Shown piece by piece: positions 26,285 to 55,860 of a stretch of 64,000 bases of DNA. Position 1 is the stretch's first letter. Each line of letters begins with the position of its first letter. Position numbers and translations under genes: made by a program. A model generated the notes under the pieces. It was not told the DNA's origin and made no database searches. It saw only the letters and a program-made list of their open reading frames with translations. Origin of the DNA: Rhodoligotrophos appendicifer (GTDB lineage Bacteria > Pseudomonadota > Alphaproteobacteria > Rhizobiales > Im1); contig NZ_VHKL01000011.1 in the NCBI RefSeq assembly GCF_007474605.1, forward strand, positions 124,001 through 188,000. Reading direction: 5' to 3'.

Positions 26285-28865
<2,581 letters not shown>

Positions 28866-39935: not shown

Positions 39936-40033
39936 GGGTTGCCCTCGTAGCAAATCGCACTGCGCAGAAGCCCATAACTGACGAAGGAGAGAAGCGATCC
40001 ATTTGAGGAGGGTTCAACGAGCCTCCTTGATCC

Positions 40034-40052: not shown

Positions 40053-40138
40053 GTCGCATCATCCGGATATTTCCCCTGCCGGTGGGCGCGCGCCTGTCTT
40101 CCCGGGCGGCTCCAGATGTTGGACATTCAGGATCTTTC

Positions 40139-40945: not shown

Positions 40946-41037
40946 GCAACACGCGGTGTTCGAACCCGCGAGGCGCTTGCCTTACGGGACGCGCTTGACT
41001 CACGGGAAGAAGGAGCCCTAGAATTCCAACGGTTCGA

Positions 41038-41058
41038 TCGTATCTCTAGGAGATACGA
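41038..41058. promoter_or_regulatory. candidate IclR operator upstream of livH
   Basis: TCGTATCTC-TAG-GAGATACGA is a perfect inverted repeat with 9-bp arms and a 3-bp spacer, 29 nt before the livH start. As CGTATC-N7-GATACG it matches the layout of the weaker site before iclR. Its position would suit repression or activation of the liv-OYE operon. Confidence 0.55.
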
Positions 41059-41087
41059 AACGGACGGCCATTGCGCTCGGGGACGGC

Positions 41088-41966
41088 ATGGAAGAACTGA
41101 CGATCATTCTGGTCCGGGGATTGGGGCTCGGTGCCATCTATGCGCTGATCGCGATCAGCCTGAACGCCATCCACCGCGCCACCGGCATCTTCAATTTCGC
41201 CCAGGGAATGCTGTTCGTCGTCGCCGGCATCCTGGCGGCGCTGACCATGCCCTCGACGCCCAATCCGTATCTCTGGCTCGCGCTCCTTCCCTTGGCCGCC
41301 GTGGCTCTGGCTGCTGCGATGGCCGTGCAAGGCTACATCACCCTGCTGCCGCTCCGCTCCTCGGTCGAGCAGCATTCCTGGCTCGTTTCGACGCTGGCCG
41401 TGTCGGTCCTGATCGGGGCCATCATCCTGCTGATCCAGGGCAACAACCAGATCCTGACCACCAGCCAGTTCCCCAGCTTTCCGGTCTTCGGCACGCGGAC
41501 GCCGGCGCCCTATGTGCTGGCGATCGCGGCTGCCCTGCTCTGGTGGGCCGCCTTGCGCTGGTTCCACACCAAAACCCTGACCGGCCTGTCGATCAGCGCC
41601 ATCGCCCAGGACCTCGATGCGGCCAGCGCCGCGGGGTTGCGGGTCCGCCGGCTGCAGGTGCTGGCCTTCGGCATCAGCGGGCTCATCGTCGGTTCGGCTG
41701 GCTTCATCGCCGCGCCGATCGTCGCGCTGGCCAATGACAGCGGGCTTGCCTATGTGACCAACGGCTTCGTCGCCGCCGTCGTCGGCGGCATCGGCAGCGA
41801 CACGGGCGCGCTGGTGGGCGGGGCCCTGGTCGGCGTCATCTCGATGTATGCCGCCTTCGAATATGGCGGCGAGTTCCAGAACGTCGTCACCCTCGGGCTT
41901 CTCGTCCTGGTTCTGATGGTTCGGCCAGAAGGGCTTTTCGGCACTCCAGCGGCACGGAAAGTCTGA
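41088..41966 (+). CDS. branched-chain-amino-acid-type ABC transporter permease (LivH-like)
   Basis: A 292-residue polytopic permease of the HAAT family. Family hallmarks are GAIYALIAISLNAIHRATGIFNFAQG at the start and the EAA-like GIGSDTGALVGGALVGV near the C-terminus. It partners the LivM-LivG fusion downstream (1-nt gap). The substrate is unknown; the surrounding catabolic genes suggest an amide or heterocycle rather than Leu/Ile/Val. Confidence 0.92.
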   Translation: MEELTIILVRGLGLGAIYALIAISLNAIHRATGIFNFAQGMLFVVAGILAALTMPSTPNPYLWLALLPLAAVALAAAMAVQGYITLLPLRSSVEQHSWLVSTLAVSVLIGAIILLIQGNNQILTTSQFPSFPVFGTRTPAPYVLAIAAALLWWAALRWFHTKTLTGLSISAIAQDLDAASAAGLRVRRLQVLAFGISGLIVGSAGFIAAPIVALANDSGLAYVTNGFVAAVVGGIGSDTGALVGGALVGVISMYAAFEYGGEFQNVVTLGLLVLVLMVRPEGLFGTPAARKV

Positions 41967-41967
41967 G

Positions 41968-43797
41968 ATGACACAGTCCTCTTCGATCACCGAACAGCGT
42001 GAGCCGCCGGTCACCGAGCGCTCGGGATGGTCCGCCCTGTTCGGAGACGCCCATGGGGGAAGCACCCTGCAAGTGGTCCTCGGGATCGTGCTCGTCGTCT
42101 CGAGCATCGCCGTGCCGGCGCTGACCGGGCAGGCCTATTGGGCGCATAATTTCCTCGTGGTGAACCTGTTTGTCACCGTGGCCGTGCTGCAGAACCTGCT
42201 CTTGTCGGATGCCGGCCAGCTGTCCTTCGGCCAGGGCGCGGTGTTCGGCATCGGTGCCTATATGACCGGCATCGTGTCGGGTCTGTGGGGCTTCAGCTAT
42301 CCCGTGGGCTTTCTCGGCGGGGTCGCTGCGGCAACCGTGATGGGTCTGCTGTTCGCCGCTCCCGCCCTGCGCGTGCAGAGTTTCTATCTGGGGTTCGTGA
42401 CGCTGAGCGCCGCCCTGGTCTTTCCTGAAATGCTGGTGGCGTTCAGCGACGTGACCAATGGCATCAACGGCATCGCCCGCGCGGTCCCGGATCTCACGGC
42501 GCCGCTGGTCGGCGGCTTGAGCTGGCTGTCCTTCATCATCATGGGATTGGCCAGTGCCAGCCTGATCGGGCATGCCTGGTTCCGCCGCACAGCGCTGGGG
42601 CGACGGATGCGGGTGGCGGCCCACAGCCCAGAAGCCGCGGTGACCATGGGCTGGAGCCCGGGCCAGCTGCGCTTCATCGCCTTCACGATCGCGGCCGTCG
42701 GCACGGGAATCGCCGGGGCGCTCTATCTGCCGGTGATCGGCTTCGTCAGTCCCTATGCCTTCCGCGTCGAGCTTTCGATCTTCTTCTTCTTCTCCGTCAT
42801 CGTCGGCGGACAGGGCAAGCTCATCGGGCCGGTGATCGGCGTCTGGGTGCTCTATCTCATTCCAAACGTGATCCTGGCGGACCTGGCCGTCTATCGCCTG
42901 CTGGCCTACGGCATCATCGCGCTGGTGATCATGCTGGCCTTTCCCGACGGGATCGTGGGCACGGTGCAGAAGGCGATCCAGCGGCATCGGCTGCGCAGCA
43001 GGACCGGCGAGATCGATTTCGATGCCGTCCTCAGCACCAGCCTGACGCCGACGGCCGGGGTGCAGAAGAACACCCGGGGGATCGAGGTCAAAGGCGCCAC
43101 CAAGGCCTATGGCAAGATGGTCGCGCTCAACGCGGTCGACGTCACCATCGTGCCGGGCACCATCCACGCGATCGTCGGTCCCAACGGTTCGGGCAAGACC
43201 ACGCTGCTCAACGTGATCTCCGGACTGGCCCGGGTCGATGAGGGCCATGTCCTCATCGGCGGCGTCGATACGACCCACAAGGCGAGCTACAGCACCGCGC
43301 GCCTCGGGCTCGGCCGGACGTTCCAGACGCCGAGAGTCTTCGAAGAGATGTCGATCTGGGACAACATCATGATCGGCGCCGATGCGAGGACCACCCCCGG
43401 GGAATCCTGGCTGCTGGACTCCCTGGAGCCGCATCGACAGGCGTGGAGCGGGCAGATGCCCGACATCCTGCCGCATGCGCAACGGCGCCTGCTGGAGATC
43501 CTGCGGGTGCTGGCCATGGATTCGGAAATCATCCTCCTGGACGAACCGGCGGCGGGCCTGTCGTCGGCGGAGCGGCTGAAGCTGTCGTCCCTGCTCCGCC
43601 TGGTGCGGGACAGGATGGGGAAGACGGTGGTGCTCATCGAACACGACCTGCATCTCGTCTGGGACGTCGCCGATCAGATCACGGTGCTCGATGCCGGGGA
43701 GGTCGTGGCCGACGGGGCGCCCAAGGACATTCTCAACGAGGCCCGAGTCCGCAGCCTTTTCGCAGGGACAGTGCAGAAGGCCGGTGCCGATGCTTGA
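41968..43797 (+). CDS. fused LivM-type permease and LivG-type ATPase
   Basis: A 609-residue fusion. Residues 1-340 are a LivM-like permease (LLLSDAGQLSFGQGAVFGIG, SPYAFRVELSIFFFFSVIVGG); residues about 365-609 are an ABC ATPase with Walker A GPNGSGKTT (404-412), Q-loop GRTFQTPRVF, Walker B IILLDEPAAGLS and the switch His in VLIEHDLH. The signature motif is degenerate: LPHAQ at 501-505 in place of LSxGQ, with the key Ser and Gly both lost. The stop overlaps livF by 8 nt. Confidence 0.93.
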   Translation: MTQSSSITEQREPPVTERSGWSALFGDAHGGSTLQVVLGIVLVVSSIAVPALTGQAYWAHNFLVVNLFVTVAVLQNLLLSDAGQLSFGQGAVFGIGAYMTGIVSGLWGFSYPVGFLGGVAAATVMGLLFAAPALRVQSFYLGFVTLSAALVFPEMLVAFSDVTNGINGIARAVPDLTAPLVGGLSWLSFIIMGLASASLIGHAWFRRTALGRRMRVAAHSPEAAVTMGWSPGQLRFIAFTIAAVGTGIAGALYLPVIGFVSPYAFRVELSIFFFFSVIVGGQGKLIGPVIGVWVLYLIPNVILADLAVYRLLAYGIIALVIMLAFPDGIVGTVQKAIQRHRLRSRTGEIDFDAVLSTSLTPTAGVQKNTRGIEVKGATKAYGKMVALNAVDVTIVPGTIHAIVGPNGSGKTTLLNVISGLARVDEGHVLIGGVDTTHKASYSTARLGLGRTFQTPRVFEEMSIWDNIMIGADARTTPGESWLLDSLEPHRQAWSGQMPDILPHAQRRLLEILRVLAMDSEIILLDEPAAGLSSAERLKLSSLLRLVRDRMGKTVVLIEHDLHLVWDVADQITVLDAGEVVADGAPKDILNEARVRSLFAGTVQKAGADA

Positions 43798-44509
43798 GGT
43801 GCGCGACCTTCACGCAGGCTATGGCCGCGTCCCCGTGCTGCATGGGATCAATCTCAGCCTGAAGGCCGGGGAGATCGTGCTCGTGCTGGGGGCGAATGGT
43901 GCGGGAAAATCAACGCTGCTCAGGACCATTTCCGGTTTCATCAAGCCCACATCCGGCTCGGTCCTCTATGAGGGCGTCGACATTACCGGTCGGCGACCGG
44001 AAGAATCGGCGCGGGCGGGACTTCGCCTCGTGCTCGACGGACACCGCGTGTTCCCGAACATCTCGGTTGCCGACAATATCCGGCTCGGTGCCGTGATGCA
44101 TGGCGGCAAGCATTCCTTCGAGGATCTGGCCGGACCGGCGCTCGAGATGTTCCCGATCCTGCGCGAGAAGCTGCACCAGCCGGCGCGCGAACTCAGCGGC
44201 GGGCAGCAGCAGATGGTCGCGCTCGCCCAGGCGTTTGCGGCAAAGCCGAAGGTCCTGTTGTGCGACGAGCCCTCGCTCGGCCTCGCGCAGGCGCTGCTGC
44301 CGCCGATCCTCGAATTCCTGAGCAATTGGGCGAGGTCGGGCACCGGGATCATCATCGTGGAGCAGCAGATCGGGGTGGCGCTGCATGTGGCCGACCGGGC
44401 CATCGTCATCGAGCGCGGCGAGGTCAAGCTGACCGGGACGGCGGACGAAATCCGCAACAACCCCCGGGTCCAAGACATCTATATGGGTATCCAGTCCGAT
44501 GCACGGTAA
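43790..44509 (+). CDS. ABC transporter ATPase (LivF-like)
   Basis: A 239-residue ATPase with Walker A GANGAGKS (34-41), intact signature LSGGQ (135-139), Walker B VLLCDEPSLGLA and switch His replaced by Gln in IIVEQQIGVA, as is normal for LivF. The start ATG at 43790 lies inside the end of the LivM-LivG gene. The stop overlaps the next gene by 11 nt, indicating coupled expression of transporter and reductase. Confidence 0.94.
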   Translation: MLEVRDLHAGYGRVPVLHGINLSLKAGEIVLVLGANGAGKSTLLRTISGFIKPTSGSVLYEGVDITGRRPEESARAGLRLVLDGHRVFPNISVADNIRLGAVMHGGKHSFEDLAGPALEMFPILREKLHQPARELSGGQQQMVALAQAFAAKPKVLLCDEPSLGLAQALLPPILEFLSNWARSGTGIIIVEQQIGVALHVADRAIVIERGEVKLTGTADEIRNNPRVQDIYMGIQSDAR

Positions 44510-45683
44510 ACGCCAGAGCGCGCTGCTCAGCCCCCTGCAGATCCGCGACACGGTGTTCAAGAACCGGATCGTGATCTCGCCGATGCAACAATATGCGGCG
44601 ACGGTCGATGGCAAGGTCGGGCCCTGGCATCGCGCGCATCTCGGCCGCCTGGCGGCGGGGGGCGCCGGCCTCGTCTTCGCCGAGGTAACGGCGGTCAGCC
44701 CCGAGGGGCGGAACACGTATGCGGATACGGGATTGTGGTCCGATGACCAGATCGACGGCTGGTCGCGGCTGACCGAGGAGATGGCAGCGACGAGCATTCC
44801 GGGCATCCAGATCGGACATTGCGGCCGCAAGGCTTCGATCCAACGTCCCTGGGACGGGTTCGGGCCGCTGACGGAAGCGGATGCGGCGCGGGGGGAGGCG
44901 CCGTGGCCGGTGGTCGGACCGTCGGCGATCGCGTCGAATCCGGGATGGCCGGTTCCCGCCGAACTCACGCTCGACCAGATCAAGGTGCTCGTCGATCAGT
45001 TCGCCAGCGCGACGCGACGTGCATTGGCGGCCGGATTCCAGGCCCTCAACATTCATGGCGCCCATGGCTATCTCATCCATAGCTTCCTCTCACCGCTGAG
45101 CAACCAACGGAGCGATGCCTATGGCGGCGATCGGGCCGGGCGGATGCGGTTTGCCCTGGAGGTGGCAGAGGCCGTCCGCGCGAATTGGCCGGGCACGCTG
45201 CCGATCTTTTTCAGGATCTCGGCCATCGACGGTCTGCCGGGCGGCTGGGAGATTGAGGATTCCATCGCCCTCGCTCGCGCGCTGAAAACGCGCGGGATCG
45301 ATGTGATGGACTGTTCTTCGGGCGGCCTCACCGCGCGGTCGACGACAGCGGCGGTGCCCCGCCCGGAAGGCTACCAGGTGCCGCTCGCCGCCGCCGTGCG
45401 CGATGGCGCGGACATCGCCACCATGGCCGTGGGGCTGATCCGCAACCCCAGTTTCGCGGAGGCGGTTGTGGCGGAGGGATCGGCTGATTTCGTCGCGATC
45501 GGCCGGGAGAGCCTGAACGACCCGTTCTGGCCGTTCCGCGCCGCGGTCGACCTGATGGGCGAGGCCGAGGGCTATGCAGCCTGGCCGAAACGCTATGGAT
45601 GGTGGCTCGAACGCCGTGCCGAGCAATTGCGGCTCGACCCGTCGGCGAGCGCCCCCCAACCCAAGGCCAAGGCCTCACAATAA
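44499..45683 (+). CDS. old yellow enzyme family NAD(P)H:flavin oxidoreductase
   Basis: A 394-residue FMN TIM-barrel oxidoreductase of the YqjM/NamA-like branch. Evidence includes NRIVISPMQQYAATVDG near the start, QIGHCGRKAS (substrate-anion-binding His region), NIHGAHGYLIHSFLSPLSNQ and the FMN-phosphate segment VAIGRESLNDPFW. Enzymes of this type reduce activated C=C bonds; here it may reduce an unsaturated ring or enone of the imported compound. It overlaps livF. Confidence 0.9.
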   Translation: MHGKRQSALLSPLQIRDTVFKNRIVISPMQQYAATVDGKVGPWHRAHLGRLAAGGAGLVFAEVTAVSPEGRNTYADTGLWSDDQIDGWSRLTEEMAATSIPGIQIGHCGRKASIQRPWDGFGPLTEADAARGEAPWPVVGPSAIASNPGWPVPAELTLDQIKVLVDQFASATRRALAAGFQALNIHGAHGYLIHSFLSPLSNQRSDAYGGDRAGRMRFALEVAEAVRANWPGTLPIFFRISAIDGLPGGWEIEDSIALARALKTRGIDVMDCSSGGLTARSTTAAVPRPEGYQVPLAAAVRDGADIATMAVGLIRNPSFAEAVVAEGSADFVAIGRESLNDPFWPFRAAVDLMGEAEGYAAWPKRYGWWLERRAEQLRLDPSASAPQPKAKASQ

Positions 45684-45706
45684 GCGGCCGATCAGCGAGG
45701 AAGAGA

Positions 45707-46834
45707 ATGGATTTCAGGGCACTGCCGTTCGATACGGAAACGATGCTGGCGGGGCTGCGACCCTGGATCGAGTGCGAGAGCCCGACCTGGGATGCGTCGG
45801 CGGTCAACCGGATGATGGACCTGGCATCGAAGGACCTCGCCGAGGCGGGCGCCGAGCTCACGCGCTTTCCGGGGCGCCAGGGCTTCGGGGATTGCGTCCG
45901 GGCGGCGTTTCCGAGCCGGAGCGATGCACCCGGCGTCCTCATCATGGGCCACATGGATACGGTTCATCCCATCGGGACGCTCCAGCAGTTGCCGTGGCGC
46001 CGTGAGGAAGAGAAATGCTTCGGTCCGGGGATCCTGGACATGAAGGGCGGCAACTTCATCGCTCTGGAGGCAGTGCGCCAGCTGCGGCGGGCCGGTCTGG
46101 ACACGCCGCTCCCGGTGACGATCCTGCTCACCAGCGACGAGGAAGTGGGCAGCCCCAGCACCCGGGAGCTGATCGAACAAGAGGCCAGCAAGCACAAATT
46201 CGTCCTGGTGCCGGAACCGGGCATGGCGGATGGCGGCGTCGTCTCGGGCCGCTATGCGATCGCCCGGTACAATCTCGAGGCGGTCGGCAAGCCGAGCCAT
46301 GCGGGCGCCCGGCTGGCGGAGGGACGTTCCGCCATTCGCGAGATGGCCAAGCAGATCCTGGCCATCGGCGACATGACGACGGAAGACTGCACCTTCAGCG
46401 TCGGCGTCGTGCATGGTGGCAAATGGGTCAATTGCGTGCCGACTGTCTGTACAGGCGAGGTGCTCAGCATGGCGAAGCGCCAGAGCCATCTCGATGCGGG
46501 CGTGGCGAAGATCATGGGTCTTTCGGGGCGGCATGACGGGGTGGATTTCACCGTGACCCGAGGCGTGACCCGGCCGGTGTGGGAGCCAGCGCCCAATACA
46601 GTCGAGCTCTTGGAGATCGCGCGCGGGGTCGGGCGATCCCTGGGGGTGGAGCTGAGCGACCGCAGCGTCGGCGGCGGATCCGACGGGAACTTCACGGGAT
46701 CCATGGGGATCGCGACCCTGGACGGGCTCGGCTGCATGGGCGACGGCTACCACACGCTGGAGGAGTATATCACCATCTCCAGCCTCACCCTGAGGGCCAA
46801 GCTGCTGGCGGGCCTGCTGATGGAGCTCCGATAG
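45707..46834 (+). CDS. M20 family metallopeptidase (carboxypeptidase G2-like)
   Basis: A 375-residue di-zinc hydrolase that probably removes an amino acid from an N-acyl or amide conjugate. Metal-binding motifs are MGHMDTVHPIG, GPGILDMKGGN and LLTSDEEVGSPS; the dimerisation/lid domain spans about 180-290, with GKPSHAGARLAEGRSA; and the last ligand His lies in DGYHTLEEY. GAGGAAG precedes the ATG at 45707. Members cleave C-terminal Glu from folates or N-acyl amino acids; the substrate here is not known. Confidence 0.9.
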   Translation: MDFRALPFDTETMLAGLRPWIECESPTWDASAVNRMMDLASKDLAEAGAELTRFPGRQGFGDCVRAAFPSRSDAPGVLIMGHMDTVHPIGTLQQLPWRREEEKCFGPGILDMKGGNFIALEAVRQLRRAGLDTPLPVTILLTSDEEVGSPSTRELIEQEASKHKFVLVPEPGMADGGVVSGRYAIARYNLEAVGKPSHAGARLAEGRSAIREMAKQILAIGDMTTEDCTFSVGVVHGGKWVNCVPTVCTGEVLSMAKRQSHLDAGVAKIMGLSGRHDGVDFTVTRGVTRPVWEPAPNTVELLEIARGVGRSLGVELSDRSVGGGSDGNFTGSMGIATLDGLGCMGDGYHTLEEYITISSLTLRAKLLAGLLMELR

Positions 46835-47397
46835 TGGCGCAGTCGCTCTTCGAGCTCCGGCAATACAGGGTCGCCGACGGGCGGATGCAGGAGGAGATCG
46901 ATCGCGCCCTGACCTGCATCCTGCCGCCGGAAAAAGGGGGGCTGGGGCTTTTCGCGCGCTATGGCATCCCGGCTCCGGTCGGCATGTGGAGAGCAATCAG
47001 CGGGCCGAATCTGCCCTGCGTGGTGTTCGTGTATGAATGGCCGAGCGTGGCGGCCAGGGCCGCCGCGTTCGAGAGCTTCTATGTGGATCCGGCGTGGCAG
47101 GAGGAGCGTGCCCGGAGCAATGGCGGCCAGGAGATCGTGGACCGCTTGGACGATCTGCTGCTCGTCGGCGAAAAGCCTCGCCCGATGACGGCGGGGCAGA
47201 TCTATGAATTTGCGCGGGCGACGTCGGGGAGGGCACCCGAGGGCGTGGTCGCGTCGTTCTCGCCGCTTTGCGGAAACGACATCTCGGATGTCTGGATCAT
47301 TGCCCATTCCTCGCTGGTTGCGGCGGTCGAGACGCCCAGCGACGATCCGGGGTCGCGGCTGTTCTGCGAGCTGATCGATCCGGGCATCGCCGCATGA
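46834..47397 (+). CDS. NIPSNAP-like protein
   Basis: A 187-residue protein that starts with GTG overlapping the peptidase stop (TAGTG). The opening MAQSLFELRQYRVADGRMQE and the later VFVYEWPSVAARAAAFESF, then WQEERARSNGG, match the ferredoxin-like dimeric alpha/beta barrel of NIPSNAP proteins. Such proteins recur in degradation operons with no clear catalytic role. The stop overlaps the next gene (ATGA). Confidence 0.75.
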   Translation: MAQSLFELRQYRVADGRMQEEIDRALTCILPPEKGGLGLFARYGIPAPVGMWRAISGPNLPCVVFVYEWPSVAARAAAFESFYVDPAWQEERARSNGGQEIVDRLDDLLLVGEKPRPMTAGQIYEFARATSGRAPEGVVASFSPLCGNDISDVWIIAHSSLVAAVETPSDDPGSRLFCELIDPGIAA

Positions 47398-47876
47398 GGG
47401 AGGTCTTTCGCATCGGCGTGGCGGGCAGGGCCATCCACATCAGGCGGTGGCCGAGCTGGGAGGCCTTCGATGCCGAAAGGCCGGGGCCGATCGACATGCC
47501 CTGCGTGCTGGCCTATGCCGATGGCGAGGTGCGCCTGGAGGCCACGGACGGCGCGGGTTTCGAGATCCAGCGCATCCGAGTGAACAATGGCGCCGGATCG
47601 GCGGCGCGAACGCTCATCGCGGCAGATCTCGCCGCCTGGCAGGATGCCGGGGCCACAGTGATCGGCAGCTTCGAGATCGTGCATGGCCACGACCTGCCGG
47701 CGCGGGTCCTGATTTTGAACTGGACCAGCATCGAGCAGGCCGGAGCCGCTCAAAGGACCATCGAATCCGATCCGGGAGCCCAAGCACGACGGCGCACCGA
47801 ACGGACGGGCGCCCATCGATCCGCCATTCGCATCAGCAGCCGGCTCTTGGGCTGCACCTTGTCCGTAGCACGCTGA
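47394..47876 (+). CDS. second NIPSNAP-like or related small protein
   Basis: A 160-residue protein beginning MREVFRIGVAGRAIHIRRW. The first half has RWPSWEAFDAERPG and the second has ILNWTSIEQAGAAQRTIESD, both reminiscent of alpha/beta-barrel domains like its neighbour, but the match is weak. The C-terminal 25 residues are basic and low-complexity. It is coupled to the NIPSNAP-like gene by ATGA and may form a heterodimer with it (inference). Confidence 0.6.
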   Translation: MREVFRIGVAGRAIHIRRWPSWEAFDAERPGPIDMPCVLAYADGEVRLEATDGAGFEIQRIRVNNGAGSAARTLIAADLAAWQDAGATVIGSFEIVHGHDLPARVLILNWTSIEQAGAAQRTIESDPGAQARRRTERTGAHRSAIRISSRLLGCTLSVAR

Positions 47877-47951
47877 ATGGCGCGTGCACGTACAGCTTAC
47901 CAAGACGAGAACGAACCATCTGGAGTGGGAATAATGAAGGAGGAGTGGTCA

Positions 47952-49160
47952 ATGAACGCTATTCGATTCACATCGCAGCGGCGGGTGCTTGCCGCCGCAA
48001 TCCTGGCGGCGAGCCTGCCAATGGCACCGGCCATCGCACAGGAGGCGCCCGCCAAGATCGGGCTGTTCCTGGAACTCACGGGGGGATCGGCGTCGACGAC
48101 GTCGGAAGCGAGCCAGTTGGGCGTCGAGCTCGCCATCTCGGAAATCAACGCCGCGGGAGGGATCGGGGGCCGCAAGCTGCAAATGGTGGTCGCCGACACG
48201 CAGACGGATGCAACCGTGGGCGTCGGCGAAATGAAGCGGCTCGTCCTCCAGGACGAAGTGGATTTCGTCTTCGGGCCGGTGATCAGCCAAGTGTTCATGG
48301 CCGCCGCCCCGGTCGTCAATGAGGCGAAGGTCAGTTCCATCGGCTCCACGGGATCGATGGCCATCACTCCGACCTTCGCGCCCTATTATTTCAGCACCCT
48401 CATCAATGCCGAGGTCCAGGCAAAGAAGATGGTCTCGCAGGCCGTCGATGTTCGCAAGGCCAAGAAGGTCGCGATCCTCTCGGATACCGGTGCCCAGGCC
48501 AAGGATTTCGTGGCCGCGGTGAAAAAGGAACTGGAGGCGCGCGGCGTCGAACTGACGGGTACGCAAGAATATCAATACCGGGCTACGGACATGACCCCGC
48601 AGTTTCTGGCGCTGCGCCGGAGCGAACCCGAAGAGCTCCTGTTCTTCACCTCCAGCGGCGAGGATGGCGGTCACGCCCTCAAGAGCCTCAGCGAGCTGGG
48701 ATGGGACATCCATGTGACCGGCAATTGGAGCATCGGTGCGTTTGCGGAGATCGTCGAGCAGATCGCCGGAAAAGAGGCGATGAAGAACGTGACCGGCGCG
48801 AATTACCGCGGGTTCACCTATTGCAAGGGCGGCGAGCAGCCGACGGCCTTCCTCGATCTCGTGGCGAAGGCCAAGACATTCGCACCCGATCGGGCGGCGC
48901 GGGCCTCCATGACCTTCGTGGCGCTGTTCTATGACGCGACCTATCTGATGAAGGCTGCCGTCGAGGGGACAGGAAACAAGTGGGAAGGACCGGCGATCGC
49001 CGCGTGGATCGAGAAGAATGCCGGCTCCGTCAAAGGTGTGACCGGTGTCTACACCCCGTCCGCGACCTCGCATTTCCTTTATGACGCCAATGCCGTGGTG
49101 ACCGTCATTCCGAGCGAGCGTGGCGAAGCCAACATCCAGGAAAGAGCCGACTGCTCTTGA
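47952..49160 (+). CDS. periplasmic substrate-binding protein of the Liv-type transporter
   Basis: A 402-residue type I periplasmic binding protein (Peripla_BP_6). A signal peptide is visible (RRVLAAAILAASLPMAPAIA, with cleavage likely after AIA), then KIGLFLELTGGSAS and AISEINAAGGIGGRKLQMVV, the family's N-terminal core. AAGGAG lies 7 nt before the ATG at 47952. It belongs with livH, livMG and livF upstream and is followed by a strong hairpin. Confidence 0.93.
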   Translation: MNAIRFTSQRRVLAAAILAASLPMAPAIAQEAPAKIGLFLELTGGSASTTSEASQLGVELAISEINAAGGIGGRKLQMVVADTQTDATVGVGEMKRLVLQDEVDFVFGPVISQVFMAAAPVVNEAKVSSIGSTGSMAITPTFAPYYFSTLINAEVQAKKMVSQAVDVRKAKKVAILSDTGAQAKDFVAAVKKELEARGVELTGTQEYQYRATDMTPQFLALRRSEPEELLFFTSSGEDGGHALKSLSELGWDIHVTGNWSIGAFAEIVEQIAGKEAMKNVTGANYRGFTYCKGGEQPTAFLDLVAKAKTFAPDRAARASMTFVALFYDATYLMKAAVEGTGNKWEGPAIAAWIEKNAGSVKGVTGVYTPSATSHFLYDANAVVTVIPSERGEANIQERADCS

Positions 49161-49203
49161 AGCCCACAAGGCTTGGCCGCGCAGACGGCCGCTCTTGAAC
49201 CTC

Positions 49204-49234
49204 GGGACGCATCCAGGCCAACAGGATGCGTCCC
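49204..49234 (+). terminator. strong hairpin after the binding-protein gene
   Basis: GGGACGCATCC and GGATGCGTCCC form a perfect 11-bp stem with a 9-nt loop, 43 nt after the binding-protein stop. Only TTC follows, not a long T-run, so it may be a weak terminator or an mRNA-stabilising structure. It separates the binding protein from the next genes on the same strand. Confidence 0.6.
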
Positions 49235-49266
49235 TTCACACCATCTTCCGAGGAGGGCGCATTCCC

Positions 49267-49911
49267 GTGCCGTCGCTGATTTACACCGCCGAGCTTCTCC
49301 TGGATCAGGAAGACCGAGAACCGTTCCTGCAGTGGTATGCCTATCGGCATGCGCCGGATCTGTTTCCCATCGGGTTCCAGGTCTGCACCTGCTACCAGGC
49401 CGTGATCGGGGACATGACCTTTCTCGACATCTATGAAATCCCCGAATGGGAGATCTTCACCGGCAGGCCGTATGCGCGCATGGCCGAGAAGGACGTCTAT
49501 GCGGGCGAGGTCCTGGCCAAGCGCCGCGACAAGGCCCATACGCTGTACCAGCACCGGCAGCTGGCGCCCGAGGGCGCGACCACCGAGGTGCTGGCCGATG
49601 CGGATTGGGTGTCCGTGCTGCGTTTCAACTCGAGCCTCGATGCCGAGGACATGCAGGCGGCCCTACAAGCCGAGGCGTCACGGCTCGCCGCGGATGGCGC
49701 CACGGGCGTGCGCTTTGCCGAGCGCAGCCGAGACCATCCGGTCTACACCACCCACCGACCCCACTACATGCTGATGGCGGAATGGCCGGAGCGTCCGTCC
49801 TCGGAGGCATCGCTGTTCGACCGTCTGCCGCAGCAGCTTCCCGGGGCCTTGTCGGAGATCACCCCCTTTCTGGGGCGGCGCGTCTATCCCTGGCCGAATA
49901 CCCGCGCGTGA
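49267..49911 (+). CDS. uncharacterised protein, possibly dimeric alpha/beta barrel
   Basis: A 214-residue protein starting with GTG at 49267 (MPSLIYTAELLLDQEDREPF) after GAGGAGG. The pattern LLLDQEDREPFLQWYAYRHA followed by a short strand (FLDIYEIPEWEIF), repeated in a weaker second half, suggests two ferredoxin-like domains. I do not recognise a named family. It lies between the transporter operon and the dehydrogenase, and might act on or bind the pathway intermediate. Confidence 0.6.
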   Translation: MPSLIYTAELLLDQEDREPFLQWYAYRHAPDLFPIGFQVCTCYQAVIGDMTFLDIYEIPEWEIFTGRPYARMAEKDVYAGEVLAKRRDKAHTLYQHRQLAPEGATTEVLADADWVSVLRFNSSLDAEDMQAALQAEASRLAADGATGVRFAERSRDHPVYTTHRPHYMLMAEWPERPSSEASLFDRLPQQLPGALSEITPFLGRRVYPWPNTRA

Positions 49912-49945
49912 GCCATGGCCCGAGATCAAGCTTGAGGAGATCCGC

Positions 49946-50677
49946 GTGAGACTTGAAGGGCGACGTATCCTGATCACGGGAGCCGGTTCGGGGATCGGGC
50001 TCGCCGCGATGCACATGCTGCAGCGGGAAGGTGCGCGCGTCGGCGCGATCGATCTGAAGCCCATGGAGATGACGGCGGGAAGCATTGCCGCGGTGGCCGA
50101 TGTGAGCCGAGAGGATGACGTCATGGACGCGGTCGAGATCCTCGCCAAGGGTCTCGGCGGGCTGGACGGCGTCGTCAACTCGGCAGGCATCGATTTCATC
50201 CGGCAGTTCTCCGAGATGGCGTCGGCCGATTGGCACCGGATCATGGCGGTCAACCTCAACGGGCCGTTTCATGTGTGCAAGGCCGCGCTGCCGCATCTGA
50301 AGCAGGCGGGAGCGGGGACGATCGTCAACATCTCGTCGGCGGCGGGATTGCGTCCTCTCGAACACAGGACGGCCTATTGCGCGTCGAAGGCGGGCCTGGT
50401 GATGTTCACCAAGACCCTGGCGGCCGACCTCGCCGGCGATGATATCCGCGCGAATGTCATCTGCCCGGGGATCGTCGATACTCCCCTGTTCCACGCCTCG
50501 TTCGAACAGGCGGCCGACCCACACGCCGAGCTGGCCCGGATCAAGGACCGCTATGTGATCAAACGGGCGGCGCGACCCGACGAGATCGCCGCGGCGGTGG
50601 TGTTTCTCTCCAGTGCGGAGTCGTCCTATATCACCGGCACGGCGCTTGCCGTCGACGGAGGGCGAAGCTTCCACTAA
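49946..50677 (+). CDS. short-chain dehydrogenase/reductase
   Basis: A 243-residue classical SDR with the cofactor motif TGAGSGIGLAA (residues 11-21), the structural NSAG motif, the catalytic Ser in NISSAAG and the YxxxK pair in AYCASKAG. C-terminal SYITGTALAVDGG is typical of the FabG/BDH-like group. The start codon is GTG. The substrate is unknown; it may oxidise or reduce an alcohol or keto intermediate of the IclR-controlled pathway. Confidence 0.9.
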   Translation: MRLEGRRILITGAGSGIGLAAMHMLQREGARVGAIDLKPMEMTAGSIAAVADVSREDDVMDAVEILAKGLGGLDGVVNSAGIDFIRQFSEMASADWHRIMAVNLNGPFHVCKAALPHLKQAGAGTIVNISSAAGLRPLEHRTAYCASKAGLVMFTKTLAADLAGDDIRANVICPGIVDTPLFHASFEQAADPHAELARIKDRYVIKRAARPDEIAAAVVFLSSAESSYITGTALAVDGGRSFH

Positions 50678-50714
50678 CGCTGCGGGACTCGAGCTTGATT
50701 TTCCACGGTACAGC

Positions 50715-51926
50715 ATGACGGCAAAGGCGGCGGAGCCGCAGATGATGGCGCGGTCCGCCGTTCTCACCACTCTGGGGCTGACGACGGCCGTGCAGGTGTT
50801 GAGCTCCTTCCTCGCTCTCGGGGTTCCGGTGCTCGCTCCGGCGATCGCCGCAGACCTGGCCATCGATCCAGACAGCATCGGCTATTATCCCGCCCTCATG
50901 TATTCCGCTGCCCTGGCGATCTGCATCATCGGCGATCCGCTGCTGTCACGGGCGCGGCCGATGTTGCGCAGCCTGATCTGCGTCGCCGTCAGCACCGTGG
51001 GGTTCGCCCTGCTGCTGGGGGCGAGCCTGCCCATCTTCATGGTGGCGGCCGTCCTGATCGGGGTCGGCTATGGTCCCGTCGTGCCGGCGACCTCACAGAT
51101 CCTGTCGGCGCGGACGCCGAGCCGCTATGCGAACCTGATCTTCTCCCTGAAGCAGTCGGGGGCTCCGCTCGGGGGCGCCCTTGCCGGGCTCTCCCTTCCG
51201 CTTCTGGTGGGGCTGACCGGGGGGTGGTGGAGCACGGTCAGCATCGTCTCAGTCAGCTGTGCCGTCCTGCTGCTCTTGCTCGGGTCTTCGGTTCCGTGGC
51301 TCGACCGCGATGCCGTGCCGATCCGCTCCGCCGGCATGCTGGGACCCATCAAGGCGGTCACCGCGCTTCCCCCGCTCCGGCGCCTGGTGATCATGTCGTC
51401 CTCCTATGGCGCGATGCAGCTGTGCCTGGGCGCCTTCCTCACGGTCTATCTGGTGCATGCGGTCGAGCTCGATCTCGCCTCGGCCGGTTTCATCTTCGGC
51501 GTGAGCCAAGCCGCCAGCATCGTCGGGCGATTGTTCTGGGGCTATGTGGCGGACCGGTTCTTCTCGCCGCGGGCCGTCATGGCGTTTCTCGGCTTCGCCA
51601 TGGCGGCGACCGCACTGGGCGTCGCGAGCTTTACGGCGGACTGGCCGATGGCCGCGGTCCTCGCGGTGGCCTTCCTCTATGGAGCCACCGCCATGGGGTG
51701 GAACGGGGTGCTCCTGGCCGAGGTGGCGCGATTGGCTCCGCCGGGGCAAATCGGCCGGCTGACAAGCGGCGTGATGAGCGCCAATTATGCCGGAGTGGTG
51801 GTGGGCCCGCTCCTGTTCACCGCCATCGCCGCGGCCGCAGACACGCAGCGGGCGGGGTTCATCGCCATGGGCGTCATCACCGCCCTGTGCGCTGCCTTCT
51901 CGCTGGTGAAGTCCGGTCAGCGCTGA
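50715..51926 (+). CDS. major facilitator superfamily transporter
   Basis: A 403-residue, 12-helix MFS permease. The ATG at 50715 (MTAKAAEPQMMARSAVL) is chosen because the upstream frame overlaps the dehydrogenase end. Typical MFS features are GYGPVVPATSQILS and the central loop RLFWGYVADRFFSPR. It resembles CynX/NarK-like or sugar/anion carriers only at a general level. It is the last plus-strand gene of this block and may export a product or import a related substrate. Confidence 0.88.
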   Translation: MTAKAAEPQMMARSAVLTTLGLTTAVQVLSSFLALGVPVLAPAIAADLAIDPDSIGYYPALMYSAALAICIIGDPLLSRARPMLRSLICVAVSTVGFALLLGASLPIFMVAAVLIGVGYGPVVPATSQILSARTPSRYANLIFSLKQSGAPLGGALAGLSLPLLVGLTGGWWSTVSIVSVSCAVLLLLLGSSVPWLDRDAVPIRSAGMLGPIKAVTALPPLRRLVIMSSSYGAMQLCLGAFLTVYLVHAVELDLASAGFIFGVSQAASIVGRLFWGYVADRFFSPRAVMAFLGFAMAATALGVASFTADWPMAAVLAVAFLYGATAMGWNGVLLAEVARLAPPGQIGRLTSGVMSANYAGVVVGPLLFTAIAAAADTQRAGFIAMGVITALCAAFSLVKSGQR

Positions 51927-51960
51927 CCGAGGATACCGTATGGAGGTACGGGCGGTGAGG

Positions 51961-52743
51961 TCAGGAATAGGCTCCGTCGATCGGGAGATCCACGCCGGAC
52001 ACATAGCTGGCGGCTTCCGAGACCAGGAACTCGATGGCCGCCGCCACCTCGTCGGGAGAGCCCGGGCGGGCAATGGGATAGGCGGCGAGCATGCGGGCCC
52101 GCTCGGTTTCGGGCAGGGTATCGAACCGATCGCGGATGCGGGTGCCCGGATCGCCCAGGATCAGTCCGGGGGAGAGGGTGTTCACCGTGATGCCATGGGC
52201 AGCCACGTCCTTGGCAAGCTGCGCCGTGAAGCCGATGAGCGCGGCCTTGGCCGTCGCATAGGGCAGGCGGGCGGTGACGGTGGTGGGCACACCCTTCTCA
52301 CCATAGGCGATGACGGAGGACAGGTTGACGATCCGACCGTAATTGCGCTCGCGCATGGTCGGCATGACGGCGCGGCAGAACAGGAAGGTGCTCTTGAGGT
52401 TGAGCTCGATCACATGATCCCAGACATCGATGTCGATGTCGTCGATCTGATAGGCTTTGCGGGGGCCCGCGCCGCCCGCAATATTCACCAGGATGTCGAT
52501 GCGGCCGAACTTCGCCAGCACAGCGTCGACGCAGGCCGTGACATCGGCCGGCCGCGTCACATCCACGAGCTGCGTCATGATCTCGCCCGGCCCGCCGGCG
52601 AGCTTCCGGCCCGCGGTTTCCAGAGCATCGGAGTCGCGGTCGACAATGAGGACATCCACGTTCCGGGCGGTCAGTCTTGCGGCCGTGGCAAACCCGATGC
52701 CCCCCGCCCCACCCGTCACGATGGCTAATTGCTTCTCAGTCAA
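51961..52743 (-). CDS. short-chain dehydrogenase/reductase
   Basis: A 260-residue SDR with TGGAGGIGFATAA near the N-terminus, NIAGGAG, catalytic Ser in NLSSVIAYG and YxxxK in PYATAKAAL. It is convergent with the MFS gene (34-nt gap) and divergent from the deacetylase. About as long as the dehydrogenase at 49946 but clearly a different paralogue. Confidence 0.9.
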   Translation of the reverse strand: MTEKQLAIVTGGAGGIGFATAARLTARNVDVLIVDRDSDALETAGRKLAGGPGEIMTQLVDVTRPADVTACVDAVLAKFGRIDILVNIAGGAGPRKAYQIDDIDIDVWDHVIELNLKSTFLFCRAVMPTMRERNYGRIVNLSSVIAYGEKGVPTTVTARLPYATAKAALIGFTAQLAKDVAAHGITVNTLSPGLILGDPGTRIRDRFDTLPETERARMLAAYPIARPGSPDEVAAAIEFLVSEAASYVSGVDLPIDGAYS

Positions 52744-52850
52744 CGCAGGACACCTCGCTGGTCACCAGGACGATGGTAGCGTATTTCAATTTCCGTGAAT
52801 GAACAGATCTTTCAGGAGCGCCGGTCGCGGGGCAGGCAAGGATAACGCAG

Positions 52851-53699
52851 ATGAGCTGGATGAATGGTGCGAAATGCGTGGTCATGCTGACCTTCGATTT
52901 CGATGCCGAAACGCTTTGGCTGGGCCGCGATGCCACCAATTGGGATCGGCCGGGCGTCCTCTCGCAAGGTGCCTATGGGGCAAGGGTGGGCGTGCCGCGG
53001 ATCCTCGAGCTGCTGAAGGAGGAGGACCTGCCGGCCACGTTCTTCGTTCCCGGCTGGGTCGCGGAATTCCACCAGGAGAAGGTGGAGGCGATCGTCGCCG
53101 CGGGCCATGAGGTCGGACATCACGGCTATCTGCATGAGTGGATCGATCCCTCGGAGCCCGACCGGGAACGGGAAGCGATCGAGAAGGGGCTCGAGGCACT
53201 GAAGCGGATGGTGGGTGTGGTTCCCAAGGGATACCGATCACCGGCGGGCGAGACCGGCTATCACGTGGCGGAACTCCTGAAGGAGAAGGGCTTCCTCTAT
53301 GACAGCTCCATGCTGGACGATGTCTTTCCCTATCGGATGACGCTGCGCGGCGGCATTCCGGGTGTCGTGGAGATCCCGTGGAGCTGGTCGCTCGACGATG
53401 CGCCCTATGCGTTGTTCAGCATCAAGAATCCGCGGCCGATCTTCACCAATGATCATATCCTGAAGGTCTGGAGCGACGAGTTCGATGCGATCTACCGGTG
53501 GGGCGGGATCGTCAATCTGGTGATGCATCCGCAGGTCACGGGACGACCCTCGCGGCTCGAGCTGCTGCGCCGCTTCATCCAGCACGCCCGGAGGTTTCCG
53601 GATGTTCACTTCGCCGAGGGGACCGAGGTGGCGGAGTGGTTCGTCGCGCAGGAGCCGCCGTTCGAGGCGAGGAAGATCCCCGTGCGCCCGACGCCGTGA
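52851..53699 (+). CDS. polysaccharide-deacetylase-fold hydrolase (PuuE/imidase-like)
   Basis: A 282-residue NodB-fold metal hydrolase. The metal site is built from Asp16/Asp18 in TFDFDAET and His86/His90 in HEVGHHGYLHE; GYRSPAGE and VMHPQVTGRPSR follow. The short form without a signal peptide is closer to allantoinase PuuE and cyclic-imide hydrolases than to cell-wall deacetylases, so opening of a cyclic imide, hydantoin or lactam is a reasonable guess. It lies next to a racemase-like gene and a RidA gene, which fits nitrogen-compound breakdown. Confidence 0.8.
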   Translation: MSWMNGAKCVVMLTFDFDAETLWLGRDATNWDRPGVLSQGAYGARVGVPRILELLKEEDLPATFFVPGWVAEFHQEKVEAIVAAGHEVGHHGYLHEWIDPSEPDREREAIEKGLEALKRMVGVVPKGYRSPAGETGYHVAELLKEKGFLYDSSMLDDVFPYRMTLRGGIPGVVEIPWSWSLDDAPYALFSIKNPRPIFTNDHILKVWSDEFDAIYRWGGIVNLVMHPQVTGRPSRLELLRRFIQHARRFPDVHFAEGTEVAEWFVAQEPPFEARKIPVRPTP

Positions 53700-53708
53700 C
53701 GCAGGAGA

Positions 53709-54467
53709 TCAGATCCCGCGCGGCCAGGCGCGGGGGCGCAGGCCGGCGTGAAACCAGGTGATCATGGAATAGATGTCGTAAATCGGCAGCCCGAGATCTT
53801 CGCGAAGAGCAGCCGCATAAGGCGGCATGTTGGTGCATTCCAGCACGATCGCACCGATCGTCGGGTCCCGCGACACGAGCGCGCGGCCGGCGTCGAGAAT
53901 GTCCTGGCGCGCCAGATCGATGTCCAGATCCGTCTTCTCGGCCTTGATGAGGACGCGAAAGAACTCGCGGCCCTGCTCGGTGCCGGCGATCGGCGTGTCC
54001 GACGGTACGCCCGCGGCTGCCAGATGATCGGGCGTGAGGGTCGCCGCGCTTATGGTGATGATGCCCACGCGCTGGCCCGGGGGGAGGGTCGCCTGAATCC
54101 AGGGGACCTGCATCAATGCGGAGGTCGCCACGGGGACCCGGACATGGGCGGAAATCTCCCGCTGGAACAGAGACAGGAAGCCGCAATTGGTGGTGATGGC
54201 CTCGGCGCCCAGGGCGACCAGGCCCTCCGCGGCCTCCAAGAAGTCCGGGAGGAGGCCATGGCCTTGGCGGAGAACCACTTTTTCAGGGCTGGCACCGCGG
54301 ACCACGCTGTACAAGACGGGAAACGGCCAGGTCTGCGCGTTGCCCATATCGCCGGGGATGCGCGGAAAGCGGGCATCCAGCATGAGAATGCCCAACGGGG
54401 CTCCATAGACGGCCTTGCCGCCCCGAGCCATGGAGGTGAGCGAGGATCCGGCGTGGTGGTCTGACAT
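53709..54467 (-). CDS. Asp/Glu racemase superfamily protein
   Basis: A 252-residue protein with the two active-site Cys of the Asp/Glu/hydantoin racemase superfamily: Cys95 in TTNCGFLS and Cys211 in VLECTNMPPY. Members racemise amino acids or hydantoins, isomerise maleate or decarboxylate arylmalonates; which of these applies cannot be told. The ATG at 54467 (MSDHHAGSSL) is preferred to one 10 codons upstream. It ends tail-to-tail with the deacetylase. Confidence 0.85.
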   Translation of the reverse strand: MSDHHAGSSLTSMARGGKAVYGAPLGILMLDARFPRIPGDMGNAQTWPFPVLYSVVRGASPEKVVLRQGHGLLPDFLEAAEGLVALGAEAITTNCGFLSLFQREISAHVRVPVATSALMQVPWIQATLPPGQRVGIITISAATLTPDHLAAAGVPSDTPIAGTEQGREFFRVLIKAEKTDLDIDLARQDILDAGRALVSRDPTIGAIVLECTNMPPYAAALREDLGLPIYDIYSMITWFHAGLRPRAWPRGI

Positions 54468-54527
54468 CTTGCTCCCCTCATCGCTGAGACCGGTCACACT
54501 CGGATCCGGTCGAGGCTTGGTGCGAGC

Positions 54528-54878
54528 TCAGCGGGCCGCGACCACGACGATCTCGACCAGAAGGTCGGGATCAGCGAGCTCGACCTTGCCGCAGCAGCGG
54601 GTGGGCGTCGCGCCCGGCACAACCCAAGCATCCCAGACCGCGTTCATGGCGGCGAAATGGTCCATGGTGCTGAGCCAGATCTGGGCGCTCAGCAGGCGGG
54701 ATTTGTCGGAGCCGGTCGATGCCAGCAACGCGTCCACCTTGGCCAACGTCTGCCGGGTCTGCTCTGCGATATCGGCTGTCTTGTCGTCGGCGACCTGGCC
54801 GGCAAGGTAGATCGTATCGCCATGGACCACGGCGCGGCTGCGGCGCGTATTCTGATCGAATCGTTGGATGTCAGGCAC
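54528..54878 (-). CDS. RidA/YjgF-family protein
   Basis: A 116-residue RidA-family protein, which deaminates reactive enamine/imine intermediates or protects the cell from them. VVHGDTIYLAGQVADDK and the C-terminal Arg-containing segment GATPTRCCGKVEL (family: the substrate-carboxylate Arg) are visible. It lies between the racemase and dehydrogenase genes on the same strand, which is consistent with an amino- or imino-acid intermediate in the pathway. Confidence 0.9.
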   Translation of the reverse strand: MPDIQRFDQNTRRSRAVVHGDTIYLAGQVADDKTADIAEQTRQTLAKVDALLASTGSDKSRLLSAQIWLSTMDHFAAMNAVWDAWVVPGATPTRCCGKVELADPDLLVEIVVVAAR

Positions 54879-54915
54879 AATTTTGCTCCGGGATCTGAGG
54901 CAGGCTCGGTTGCGA

Positions 54916-55860
54916 TTACGACGCGGCCATGATGCGGCGACAGTGGTCGCGCGCCGCCGCGAGAAGATTGTCGCTGGCTTCCGGCGTGCGGAAGGCAGAA
55001 TGGGCCGAAAGGGTCACGTTCTCAAGCCGCGTGAACGGATGGCCGGCCGGCAGAGGCTCGGTGTCGAAGACATCCATGGCGGCATGAGCGAGGGGGCCGT
55101 GCGTCAGCGCCTCGATCAAGGCCTCATCGTCGATCAAGGCGCCGCGCGCCGTGTTCACGAGAATGGCGCCGGGCTTCATAGCCTTCAGGCGCTCGCGGGA
55201 CATGAAGCCCCGCGTCTCGTCGGTGAGGAGCAGATGGAGCGAGACGACATCGCTCTGAGCAAGCAGGTCCGGCACGTCCAGAAAGTCCACGCCGGGATGA
55301 GACCTGGGGGTGCGGTTCCAGGCCACGACCTTCATGCCGATGCCCAAAGCCAAGCGAGAACACTCAGTGGCAATGCCGCCGAAGCCGACCAGGCCCAGGG
55401 TCTTGCCGGTCAATTGCAGGCCGTTGGTGCGCAGCCACCGGCCTTCCCGGATCCCGCGATCCATAGTGGCCAGACCTTTGGCCGCCGCCCACATCAGAGA
55501 GATGGCGAATTCGGCGACGGCCGTGTCGCCGTAGCCTTTGATGGTGTGAACGGTGATGCCGATCGCCTGCAGTTCCTCGGGGTTCATGTAGCTGCGCGCG
55601 CCGGTGCCGAGGAACACCACATGGCGCAGGTCGGTGCATTTCTCCGCGATCTCCCGGGAGAGGGCGGTGTGATCGATGATCGCGACCGACGCACCCTTCA
55701 GCAGCTCCGGCAGAGAATCGGGCTTTATTCCGGGATCGCGATTGATGGAGAACTCAAGCCCCTCCAACTGAACGACCCGTTCGGCGACCGCCGCGAGAGT
55801 TTCATTGGCATCCACAAACACTACACGTAGCAAGATCACCTCGCGCAAACAGACGGACAA
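54916..55860 (-). CDS. D-2-hydroxyacid dehydrogenase family protein
   Basis: A 314-residue NAD(P)-dependent 2-hydroxyacid dehydrogenase. The NAD-binding Rossmann motif is GLVGFGGIATECSRLA; the catalytic Arg lies in VNTARGALIDDEAL, the Glu in MDVFDTEPLPAGHPF, and the His in SAHSAFRTPE. A TTG at 55833 with GAGGTG upstream is an alternative start. The palindrome at 55924-55935 sits upstream and may control this gene and, by readthrough, the RidA and racemase genes. Confidence 0.9.
   Translation of the reverse strand: MSVCLREVILLRVVFVDANETLAAVAERVVQLEGLEFSINRDPGIKPDSLPELLKGASVAIIDHTALSREIAEKCTDLRHVVFLGTGARSYMNPEELQAIGITVHTIKGYGDTAVAEFAISLMWAAAKGLATMDRGIREGRWLRTNGLQLTGKTLGLVGFGGIATECSRLALGIGMKVVAWNRTPRSHPGVDFLDVPDLLAQSDVVSLHLLLTDETRGFMSRERLKAMKPGAILVNTARGALIDDEALIEALTHGPLAHAAMDVFDTEPLPAGHPFTRLENVTLSAHSAFRTPEASDNLLAAARDHCRRIMAAS

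Follow-up and report, generated by a model that had tools for sequence, protein, structure and literature searches.

Gene content of the locus

We examined a 64,000-nucleotide stretch of the alphaproteobacterium Rhodoligotrophos appendicifer (contig NZ_VHKL01000011.1, positions 124,001 to 188,000; here termed the window, in whose numbering coordinates are given), which encodes a candidate catabolic locus for a small nitrogen heterocycle or N-acyl derivative. Genes were identified from open reading frames (ORFs) and profile scans (Pfam and NCBIfam). The central genes form what we term block A (40082-52743), consisting of an IclR-family regulator, a Liv-type ATP-binding cassette (ABC) importer, an old-yellow-enzyme (OYE) reductase, an M20 metallohydrolase, a NIPSNAP-like pair, a periplasmic binding protein, two short-chain dehydrogenases/reductases (SDR1 and SDR2) and a major facilitator superfamily (MFS) transporter; a gene for a PuuE/NodB-type (hereafter PuuE-type) hydrolase adjoins it. 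In the list below, G001 is one of the two other congeners examined.

40082..40945, + strand: IclR-family regulator (IclR_C, 5.2e-33; 86% identity to its G001 counterpart)
40995..41024, + strand: promoter-like site ahead of LivH (10/12 consensus matches, consensus scan only)
41088..41966, + strand: LivH-type permease (BPD_transp_2, 4.9e-28)
41968..43797, + strand: fused LivM permease and LivG ATPase (BPD_transp_2 and ABC_tran, single frame)
43790..44509, + strand: LivF ATPase (ABC_tran, 2.2e-32)
44499..45683, + strand: OYE reductase (Oxidored_FMN, 3.5e-62; PDB matches)
45707..46834, + strand: M20 metallohydrolase (PRK07473, 649.5 bits; 1cg2, 4.3e-36)
46834..47397, + strand: NIPSNAP protein 1 (NIPSNAP, 2.9e-07)
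47394..47876, + strand: NIPSNAP-like protein 2, a weak assignment (profile match to protein 1; 57% identity to G001)
about 47952..49160, + strand: periplasmic binding protein of the importer (Peripla_BP_6, 5.4e-48)
about 49267..49911, + strand: unnamed protein of about 214 amino acids (no Pfam match)
49946..50677, + strand: SDR1 (adh_short_C2, 2e-56)
about 50715..51926, + strand: MFS transporter (MFS_1, 4.1e-31)
51961..52743, - strand: SDR2 (adh_short_C2, 3.9e-50)
52851..53699, + strand: PuuE/NodB-type hydrolase, a proposed cyclic imidase (Polysacc_deac_1, 5.4e-20)

From LivH to NIPSNAP-like protein 2, neighbouring genes either overlap or are separated by no more than 23 bases, and the gaps from there up to the MFS gene are about 34-106 bases; because the spacing is so tight, the LivH-to-MFS stretch is likely to be a single operon. 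The consensus scan gave five promoter-like sites in the region, against a mean of 2.0 in shuffles. SDR2 and the PuuE-type gene are divergent, with 107 bases between them. Left of the IclR gene, the next called gene encodes the helicase Mfd (36624-39953), which is taken as the left border of the locus.

The initial annotation of this region had listed a Liv-type importer, an OYE, an M20 enzyme, two SDRs, a PuuE-type hydrolase, an Asp/Glu-racemase-type protein, RidA and a 2-hydroxyacid dehydrogenase, all of which are present according to the ORFs and profile scans. Its list omitted the IclR regulator, the binding protein, the MFS transporter, the unnamed protein and the HyuAB subunits; the IclR gene lies outside its start, and the HyuB and HyuA genes (55956-59997) lie outside its end. 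It had also named two adjacent NIPSNAP-like proteins, of which the first holds (31.0 bits against the PF07978 gathering score of 22.3), and the second is weak: the latter gave no hit in Pfam at E values up to 5, and its profile match to the first has a probability of 70 over 54 columns.

The PuuE/NodB-type hydrolase and its neighborhoods

The PuuE-type protein scores 99.2 bits against the allantoinase model TIGR03212, below the cut-off of 424.6. Among solved structures it matches 3rxz best (212 bits) and HpPgdA next (3qbu, 144 bits), and PuuE allantoinase is also among its solved relatives. Residues D16, D18, H91, H95, and H226 are kept in 41/41 aligned PuuE-type sequences. The Asp and two His of the NodB pattern, which we take to be the likely metal ligands of the protein, are also kept in the aligned HpPgdA; in the HGYxHE stretch, the PuuE-type protein retains the second His, which the aligned PuuE allantoinase lacks. 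HpPgdA is reported to be able to bind an active-site metal, unlike PuuE (PMC3084791). The closest relative of the window protein (87% identity) is encoded in the congener G002. In the G001 locus (L071, around 13920-15134), genes for an AAT-family protein and a binding protein precede the PuuE-type relative, and those for HyuA, HyuB, and M20 lie downstream of it; a relative of the AAT-family gene is also beside the PuuE-type gene in G453 (L143).

The neighborhoods of 40 other PuuE-type loci were compared, comprising 17/17 matches of the order search, 13/14 matches of the class search (G522, which matched only partially at the end of a contig, was left out), eight of the 20 plasmid rows listed (611 records matched), and two of three paralogues in the same genome. 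Each view covered 10 kb on either side (some stretches were shorter), with bit cut-offs that we set and a simple gene caller, so that some starts and small genes are approximate. The loci divide into 27 at 55% identity or above, 12 of them from one genus, and 13 more distant ones. An SDR gene lies within 10 kb in 20 of the 27 closer loci, mostly adjacent, and in six of the 13 distant loci; for IclR the corresponding counts are 16/27 and 1/13. Three OYE genes were found within 10 kb of these PuuE-type genes against 0.12 expected from the rate in 41 genomes, whose 171 Mb contain 40 OYEs, and by Poisson arithmetic the chance of at least two OYE loci is about 0.007; a further OYE, about 9 kb off in G293 (L115), lay at the end of the stretch and was uncounted.

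Individual clusters combine these genes in several ways. Sulfitobacter indolifex (L091) has an IclR gene, a Dpp-type importer, the PuuE-type gene, two SDRs, and an OYE; Roseomonas marmotae has an IclR gene, two SDRs, and the PuuE-type gene; and Agrobacterium has a Liv importer, an SDR, an amidase, and the PuuE-type gene. In one locus (L144, in G577), two OYEs, RidA, and HyuAB accompany the PuuE-type gene. The G002 cluster unites the PuuE-type gene (87%) with counterparts of SDR2 (65%) and IclR (61%), a second SDR, an amidase, a luciferase-like monooxygenase, and an FMN reductase. Genes for CofD and an F420 ligase (L111, 1095-2820) lie beside this Liv/monooxygenase/PuuE-type cluster, and because they adjoin it, an F420-dependent step is possible in G002. 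In Agrobacterium, G002, G029, and G557, the PuuE-type gene has an AS-type amidase gene next to it, and comparison of sequences alone indicated amidase relatives in L126, L153, and L154. Scans of a candidate ORF near the module identified a cytochrome P450 in each of the five loci of one genus so scanned, one of which was also scanned for ferredoxin and reductase and has both, and a P450 is also present in G029; the PuuE-type locus of G558 has a TauD-type dioxygenase, and in G001 a molybdenum hydroxylase and the PuuE-type gene are separated by about 9.5 kb. Distant relatives (Agrobacterium, and a Sinorhizobium plasmid) have argininosuccinate-lyase- and MmgE-type neighbors without an adjacent SDR pair, and some relatives at about 48-53% identity are beside creatininase-, agmatinase-, or amidohydrolase-type genes.

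Indirect links between block A and the hydrolase

Phylogenetic trees connect block A with the PuuE-type genes. The SDR tree held 46 SDRs from 35 loci, and omitted the SDR pair of L092 and the PuuE-adjacent SDR of L142. SDR1 groups (100/100) with an SDR of G001 and with PuuE-adjacent SDRs in G581, G557, and G429 (three genomes, two families), inside a group of 15 rows supported at 96/90. SDR2 groups (100/100) with SDRs of G001 and of the PuuE-type cluster of G002, within a wider group of 19 rows. Neither group takes in the remaining 12 SDR rows, of which five belong to PuuE-type loci and seven come from elsewhere. In the IclR tree (21 rows, with few unlinked IclRs for contrast), the window IclR belongs to a group of 16 rows in which all other members but one come from PuuE-type clusters. 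Because SDR1 firmly, and SDR2 and IclR less firmly, group with PuuE-linked genes, the PuuE-type hydrolase probably acts in the same pathway as block A.

Conservation and proteins of block A

Block A is present together in G001, at 57-89% identity and in the gene order of the window, except that SDR2 is upstream of IclR. The G001 block includes the unnamed protein, both NIPSNAP-like genes, and the LivM-LivG fusion as a single 608-amino-acid frame. The initial annotation had treated the whole set as one island, which the neighborhood check contradicts: G001 has block A without a PuuE-type gene, the latter being located elsewhere, and the 38 kb examined around the G001 block contain no match to the PuuE-type, racemase, RidA, 2-hydroxyacid dehydrogenase, or Hyu proteins, with a 28% RidA relative about 13 kb past the MFS gene. 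The two halves are thus joined indirectly, because the SDR, IclR, and PuuE-type families recur together elsewhere. Of 397 genomes in the order, only the one carrying the window and G001 have a strong match to NIPSNAP1 (the next best being 1.1e-9, 38 bits), so that block A as a whole appears to be rare, as far as this marker tells; at 1e-12 none of 288 other genomes of the class had a match. A plasmid search with NIPSNAP1 returned ten records (best 38% identity), and the one neighborhood viewed (L067) is unlike block A.

The M20 protein exceeds the cut-off of PRK07473 (386), a model titled only M20/M25/M40 family metallo-hydrolase, and its nearest solved chain is carboxypeptidase G2 (1cg2). M20 relatives elsewhere are near BPD_transp_1-type importer genes, and a gamma-glutamyltranspeptidase gene is upstream of block A in G001. 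The nearest solved chains to the OYE are of the YqjM/XenA kind. Enzymes of that type have a redox-active Cys at the position where the window OYE and its G001 counterpart read SPMQQY. Small proteins (EthD, NIPSNAP, or unnamed) recur in the vicinity of OYE genes: a 36% relative of the unnamed protein adjoins an OYE in Roseomonas haemaphysalidis, an EthD gene adjoins one in G206, and a NIPSNAP gene is about 3 kb from one in Azospirillum. The unnamed protein showed no similarity to the NIPSNAP1 profile (probability 0.1), and a single-sequence structure prediction for it was discarded (mean predicted local distance difference test score 42). For the binding protein, a contig scan with two exact peptide patterns, weak as a guide to absence, gave one 25% relative (L087). 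An importer of the same type occurs in another neighborhood on a Rhizobium gallicum plasmid (L088, 11896-16618; binding protein 39%, LivH 54%, fused LivM-LivG 46%, LivF 53%).

Flanking genes

Beyond the PuuE-type gene, five further genes are encoded on the opposite strand:

53709..54497, - strand: Asp/Glu-racemase-type protein (PRK07475, 327.6 bits, cut-off 231)
54528..54878, - strand: RidA (Ribonuc_L-PSP, 2.6e-24)
54916..55860, - strand: D-isomer 2-hydroxyacid dehydrogenase (2-Hacid_dh_C, 3.7e-55)
55956..57992, - strand: HyuB-type subunit (Hydantoinase_B, 1.1e-141)
57943..59997, - strand: HyuA-type subunit (Hydantoinase_A, 5e-91)

HyuA scores 520.5 bits against the caprolactamase alpha model and HyuB 245.2 bits against the beta model, both below the cut-offs of 1000 (NF050156 and NF050157); the solved relatives of HyuAB are N-methylhydantoinase and 5-oxoprolinase by name. 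HyuA was found in three of the 27 closer PuuE-type loci (L071, L143, and L144), and in the HyuA-centered view one of seven loci, in G003, has a PuuE-type gene (38%) and an SDR (30%). This link is weak because HyuA relatives are so common (12 in the same genome, 13 in G002, and 10 in G001, the highest numbers among the 41 genomes searched). RidA also occurs in 3/27 loci. The racemase was found in neither the 27 PuuE-type loci (50-bit cut) nor the seven HyuA-centered loci; racemase-family genes annotated within 10 kb of the PuuE-type gene in L093 and L141, and fragments at 36-38% in L125, fall below that cut. Neighborhoods of racemase relatives (two Ruegeria, one Chelatococcus, and one Agrobacterium plasmid) have little common theme with the locus, the overlaps being a RidA gene in L161 and a thiamine pyrophosphate enzyme in both Ruegeria records. 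The 2-hydroxyacid dehydrogenase was likewise found in 0/27 and 0/7 loci, and in one of the 13 distant PuuE-type loci. On these comparisons, HyuAB and RidA have weaker support for membership of the pathway than the block A genes and the hydrolase, and the racemase and 2-hydroxyacid dehydrogenase have no support from recurrence.

Farther out, an AS-family amidase gene (61069-62487) and permease genes of another ABC importer occupy 61069-63981 on the minus strand. The same window has Calvin-cycle genes on the minus strand, for the RuBisCO large subunit (26285-27883) and transketolase (28867-30894), and a dip in G+C content at 34001-36000 (0.575 against about 0.65 around it), with an ORF at 33953-34939 that has no Pfam match.

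Proposed pathway and alternative explanations

What was observed is that the genes are present, that a congener shares block A, and that SDR and IclR genes repeatedly accompany PuuE-type genes; every reaction, the order of reactions, and the class of substrate are our inference. Our preferred reading, held tentatively and at a little below even confidence, is that the locus is an IclR-controlled catabolic unit for a small N-heterocycle or N-acyl derivative. The compound would be imported by the Liv-type ABC importer, and perhaps also by the MFS protein; the M20 enzyme may optionally remove an amide-linked acyl or amino-acid part. The OYE would saturate a conjugated C=C bond, in place of which a P450 or other oxidases would oxidize the heterocycle in other loci. 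One or both SDRs would form a cyclic imide by oxidizing a ring carbinol, the imide ring would be opened by the PuuE/NodB-type metallohydrolase, and a further amide hydrolase would liberate ammonium, with HyuAB perhaps serving as a second, ATP-dependent ring opener. The 2-hydroxyacid dehydrogenase could oxidize a hydroxy acid such as alpha-hydroxyglutarate, with nothing tying the enzyme to the unit. This order (import, OYE, SDR, imidase, amidase) is drawn from the likeness to the fungal hxn genes (see below) together with the neighborhoods of relatives. The initial annotation had proposed uptake, C=C reduction, and ring or amide opening, which fits the fungal route; the amino-acid release that it added rests only on the likeness of M20 to carboxypeptidase G2. 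Its suggestion of an undescribed amide or N-heterocycle catabolic locus is still the best reading, without the single inherited 15-kb island. The locus is real and probably coherent as a catabolic unit, and the proposed route is plausible.

A number of observations weigh against this reading. Block A and the PuuE-type gene are far apart in G001, where the latter sits in a separate Liv cluster. SDR genes are absent from seven of the 27 closer PuuE-type loci, and their frequency owes much to the dominant genus (12/12, with 8/15 in the others); OYE genes are in only two (Sulfitobacter L091 and G577 L144), M20 genes in three, and NIPSNAP1, NIPSNAP-like protein 2, and the unnamed protein in none. 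In the trees, the wider SDR2 group (82/86) and the IclR group (80/88) lack the tree tool's star, and the IclRs of the PuuE-type clusters L123 and L126 are outside the IclR group. The nearest solved chains to SDR1 indicate no particular substrate, SDR2 has no solved chain at 1e-40, and no ring hydroxylase was recognized in block A.

The strongest alternative, less probable than the catabolic unit but a serious competitor, is that two unrelated catabolic units abut by chance: block A, with its OYE, M20, and SDRs, acting on an enone or N-acyl compound, and the PuuE-type gene with the racemase, RidA, 2-hydroxyacid dehydrogenase, and HyuAB acting on a lactam, hydantoin, or ureide. The G001 genome fits such a division, having block A without the PuuE-type gene and a PuuE-type relative that keeps company with AAT, HyuAB, and M20 genes, as does the absence of the racemase and 2-hydroxyacid dehydrogenase from all 27 loci; against it, the trees place SDR1, SDR2, and IclR from block A with PuuE-linked genes, and G002 unites three of the families in one cluster. 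Two narrower proposals seem improbable, and about equally so. In scavenging of peptides or amino-acid conjugates, a carboxypeptidase-G2-like M20 would release an acyl part for processing by the OYE and SDRs, consistent with the closest solved chain of M20, the gamma-glutamyltranspeptidase gene upstream of block A in G001, and the importer genes near M20 relatives; this would leave the PuuE-type protein unused, and M20 accompanies PuuE-type genes in only 3/27 loci. Ureide or allantoin-type catabolism would make the PuuE-type protein an allantoinase or hydantoinase-like cyclic ureide hydrolase, and the racemase and HyuAB hydantoin enzymes, in keeping with PuuE allantoinase as a solved relative and with the creatininase-, agmatinase-, or amidohydrolase-type neighbors of some relatives at about 48-53%. 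However, the score of 99 bits is far from the allantoinase cut-off of 425, the His kept in 41/41 sequences is missing in the aligned PuuE, and the OYE and SDR pair would be left unexplained.

Beyond the preferred reading of the locus as one catabolic unit, a broader and more doubtful possibility is that Alphaproteobacteria have a recurring cyclic-imide route with a core of IclR, an SDR pair, a NodB-type metallo-imidase, and an amide hydrolase, in which first steps and importers are interchangeable and the window represents the OYE form, convergent with hxn. The interchangeable first steps, conjectured with the same reserve, would comprise OYE, P450 with ferredoxin and reductase, luciferase-like monooxygenase, dioxygenase, and molybdenum hydroxylase. 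If true, the ring-opening logic of one fungal pathway would exist in bacteria as a mix-and-match module, genes annotated 'polysaccharide deacetylase' that adjoin SDRs of this kind would encode imidases acting on small rings and not on sugars, and there would be a direct means to name orphan catabolic clusters and to seek lactam and imide enzymes.

Comparison with known systems

The locus matched no single described system, as the initial annotation had supposed, and no bacterial cluster of this kind was found among the matches listed from the open-access literature, subscription papers being mostly outside that search. The window hydrolase belongs to the same superfamily as PuuE allantoinase, but is far under the model cut-off and retains the second His; the allantoin pathway was dropped on the basis of the low TIGR03212 score. 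Both HyuA and HyuB subunits of the ATP-dependent lactamases (caprolactamase, 5-oxoprolinase, N-methylhydantoinase) are encoded in the window with their Pfam domains, but are below the curated caprolactamase cut-offs, and the caprolactam pathway was dropped for this reason. Through its HpPgdA match, the PuuE-type protein resembles the fold group of Pseudomonas putida cyclic imide hydrolase (AAY98498) and HpPgdA/HP0310 in being a putative NodB-type small-molecule hydrolase, although its best solved match is 3rxz.

The closest likeness is to the hxn genes of the Aspergillus nidulans nicotinate pathway. In that pathway (PMC9304392), HxnT (an OYE) saturates a hydroxypyridine and HxnW (an SDR) then yields a cyclic imide, 3-hydroxypiperidine-2,6-dione. 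This imide is opened by the imidase HxnM, which has HpPgdA as its nearest structural homologue, and the amidase HxnN then releases ammonium; the discoverers of these steps reportedly saw them solely in that fungal pathway. An OYE, SDR, and NodB-type hydrolase are likewise encoded together in the window and in S. indolifex (L091), and an AS amidase gene is beside the PuuE-type gene in relatives, the window's own lying beyond HyuA and a LysR gene. The divergent arrangement of SDR2 and the PuuE-type gene resembles, perhaps by chance, the divergent hxnW-hxnM couple described in many fungi (PMC8478523). The window differs in being bacterial, in having an ABC importer, IclR, two SDRs, M20, and NIPSNAP, and in having no recognized counterpart of nicotinate hydroxylase or HxnX/HxnV in block A. 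Its OYE is nearer to YqjM/XenA than to OYE1, on which HxnT was modelled (PMC9304392), a further point against the proposed route. We do not claim membership of the hxn pathway; if the model is right, the locus would work like the hxn steps.

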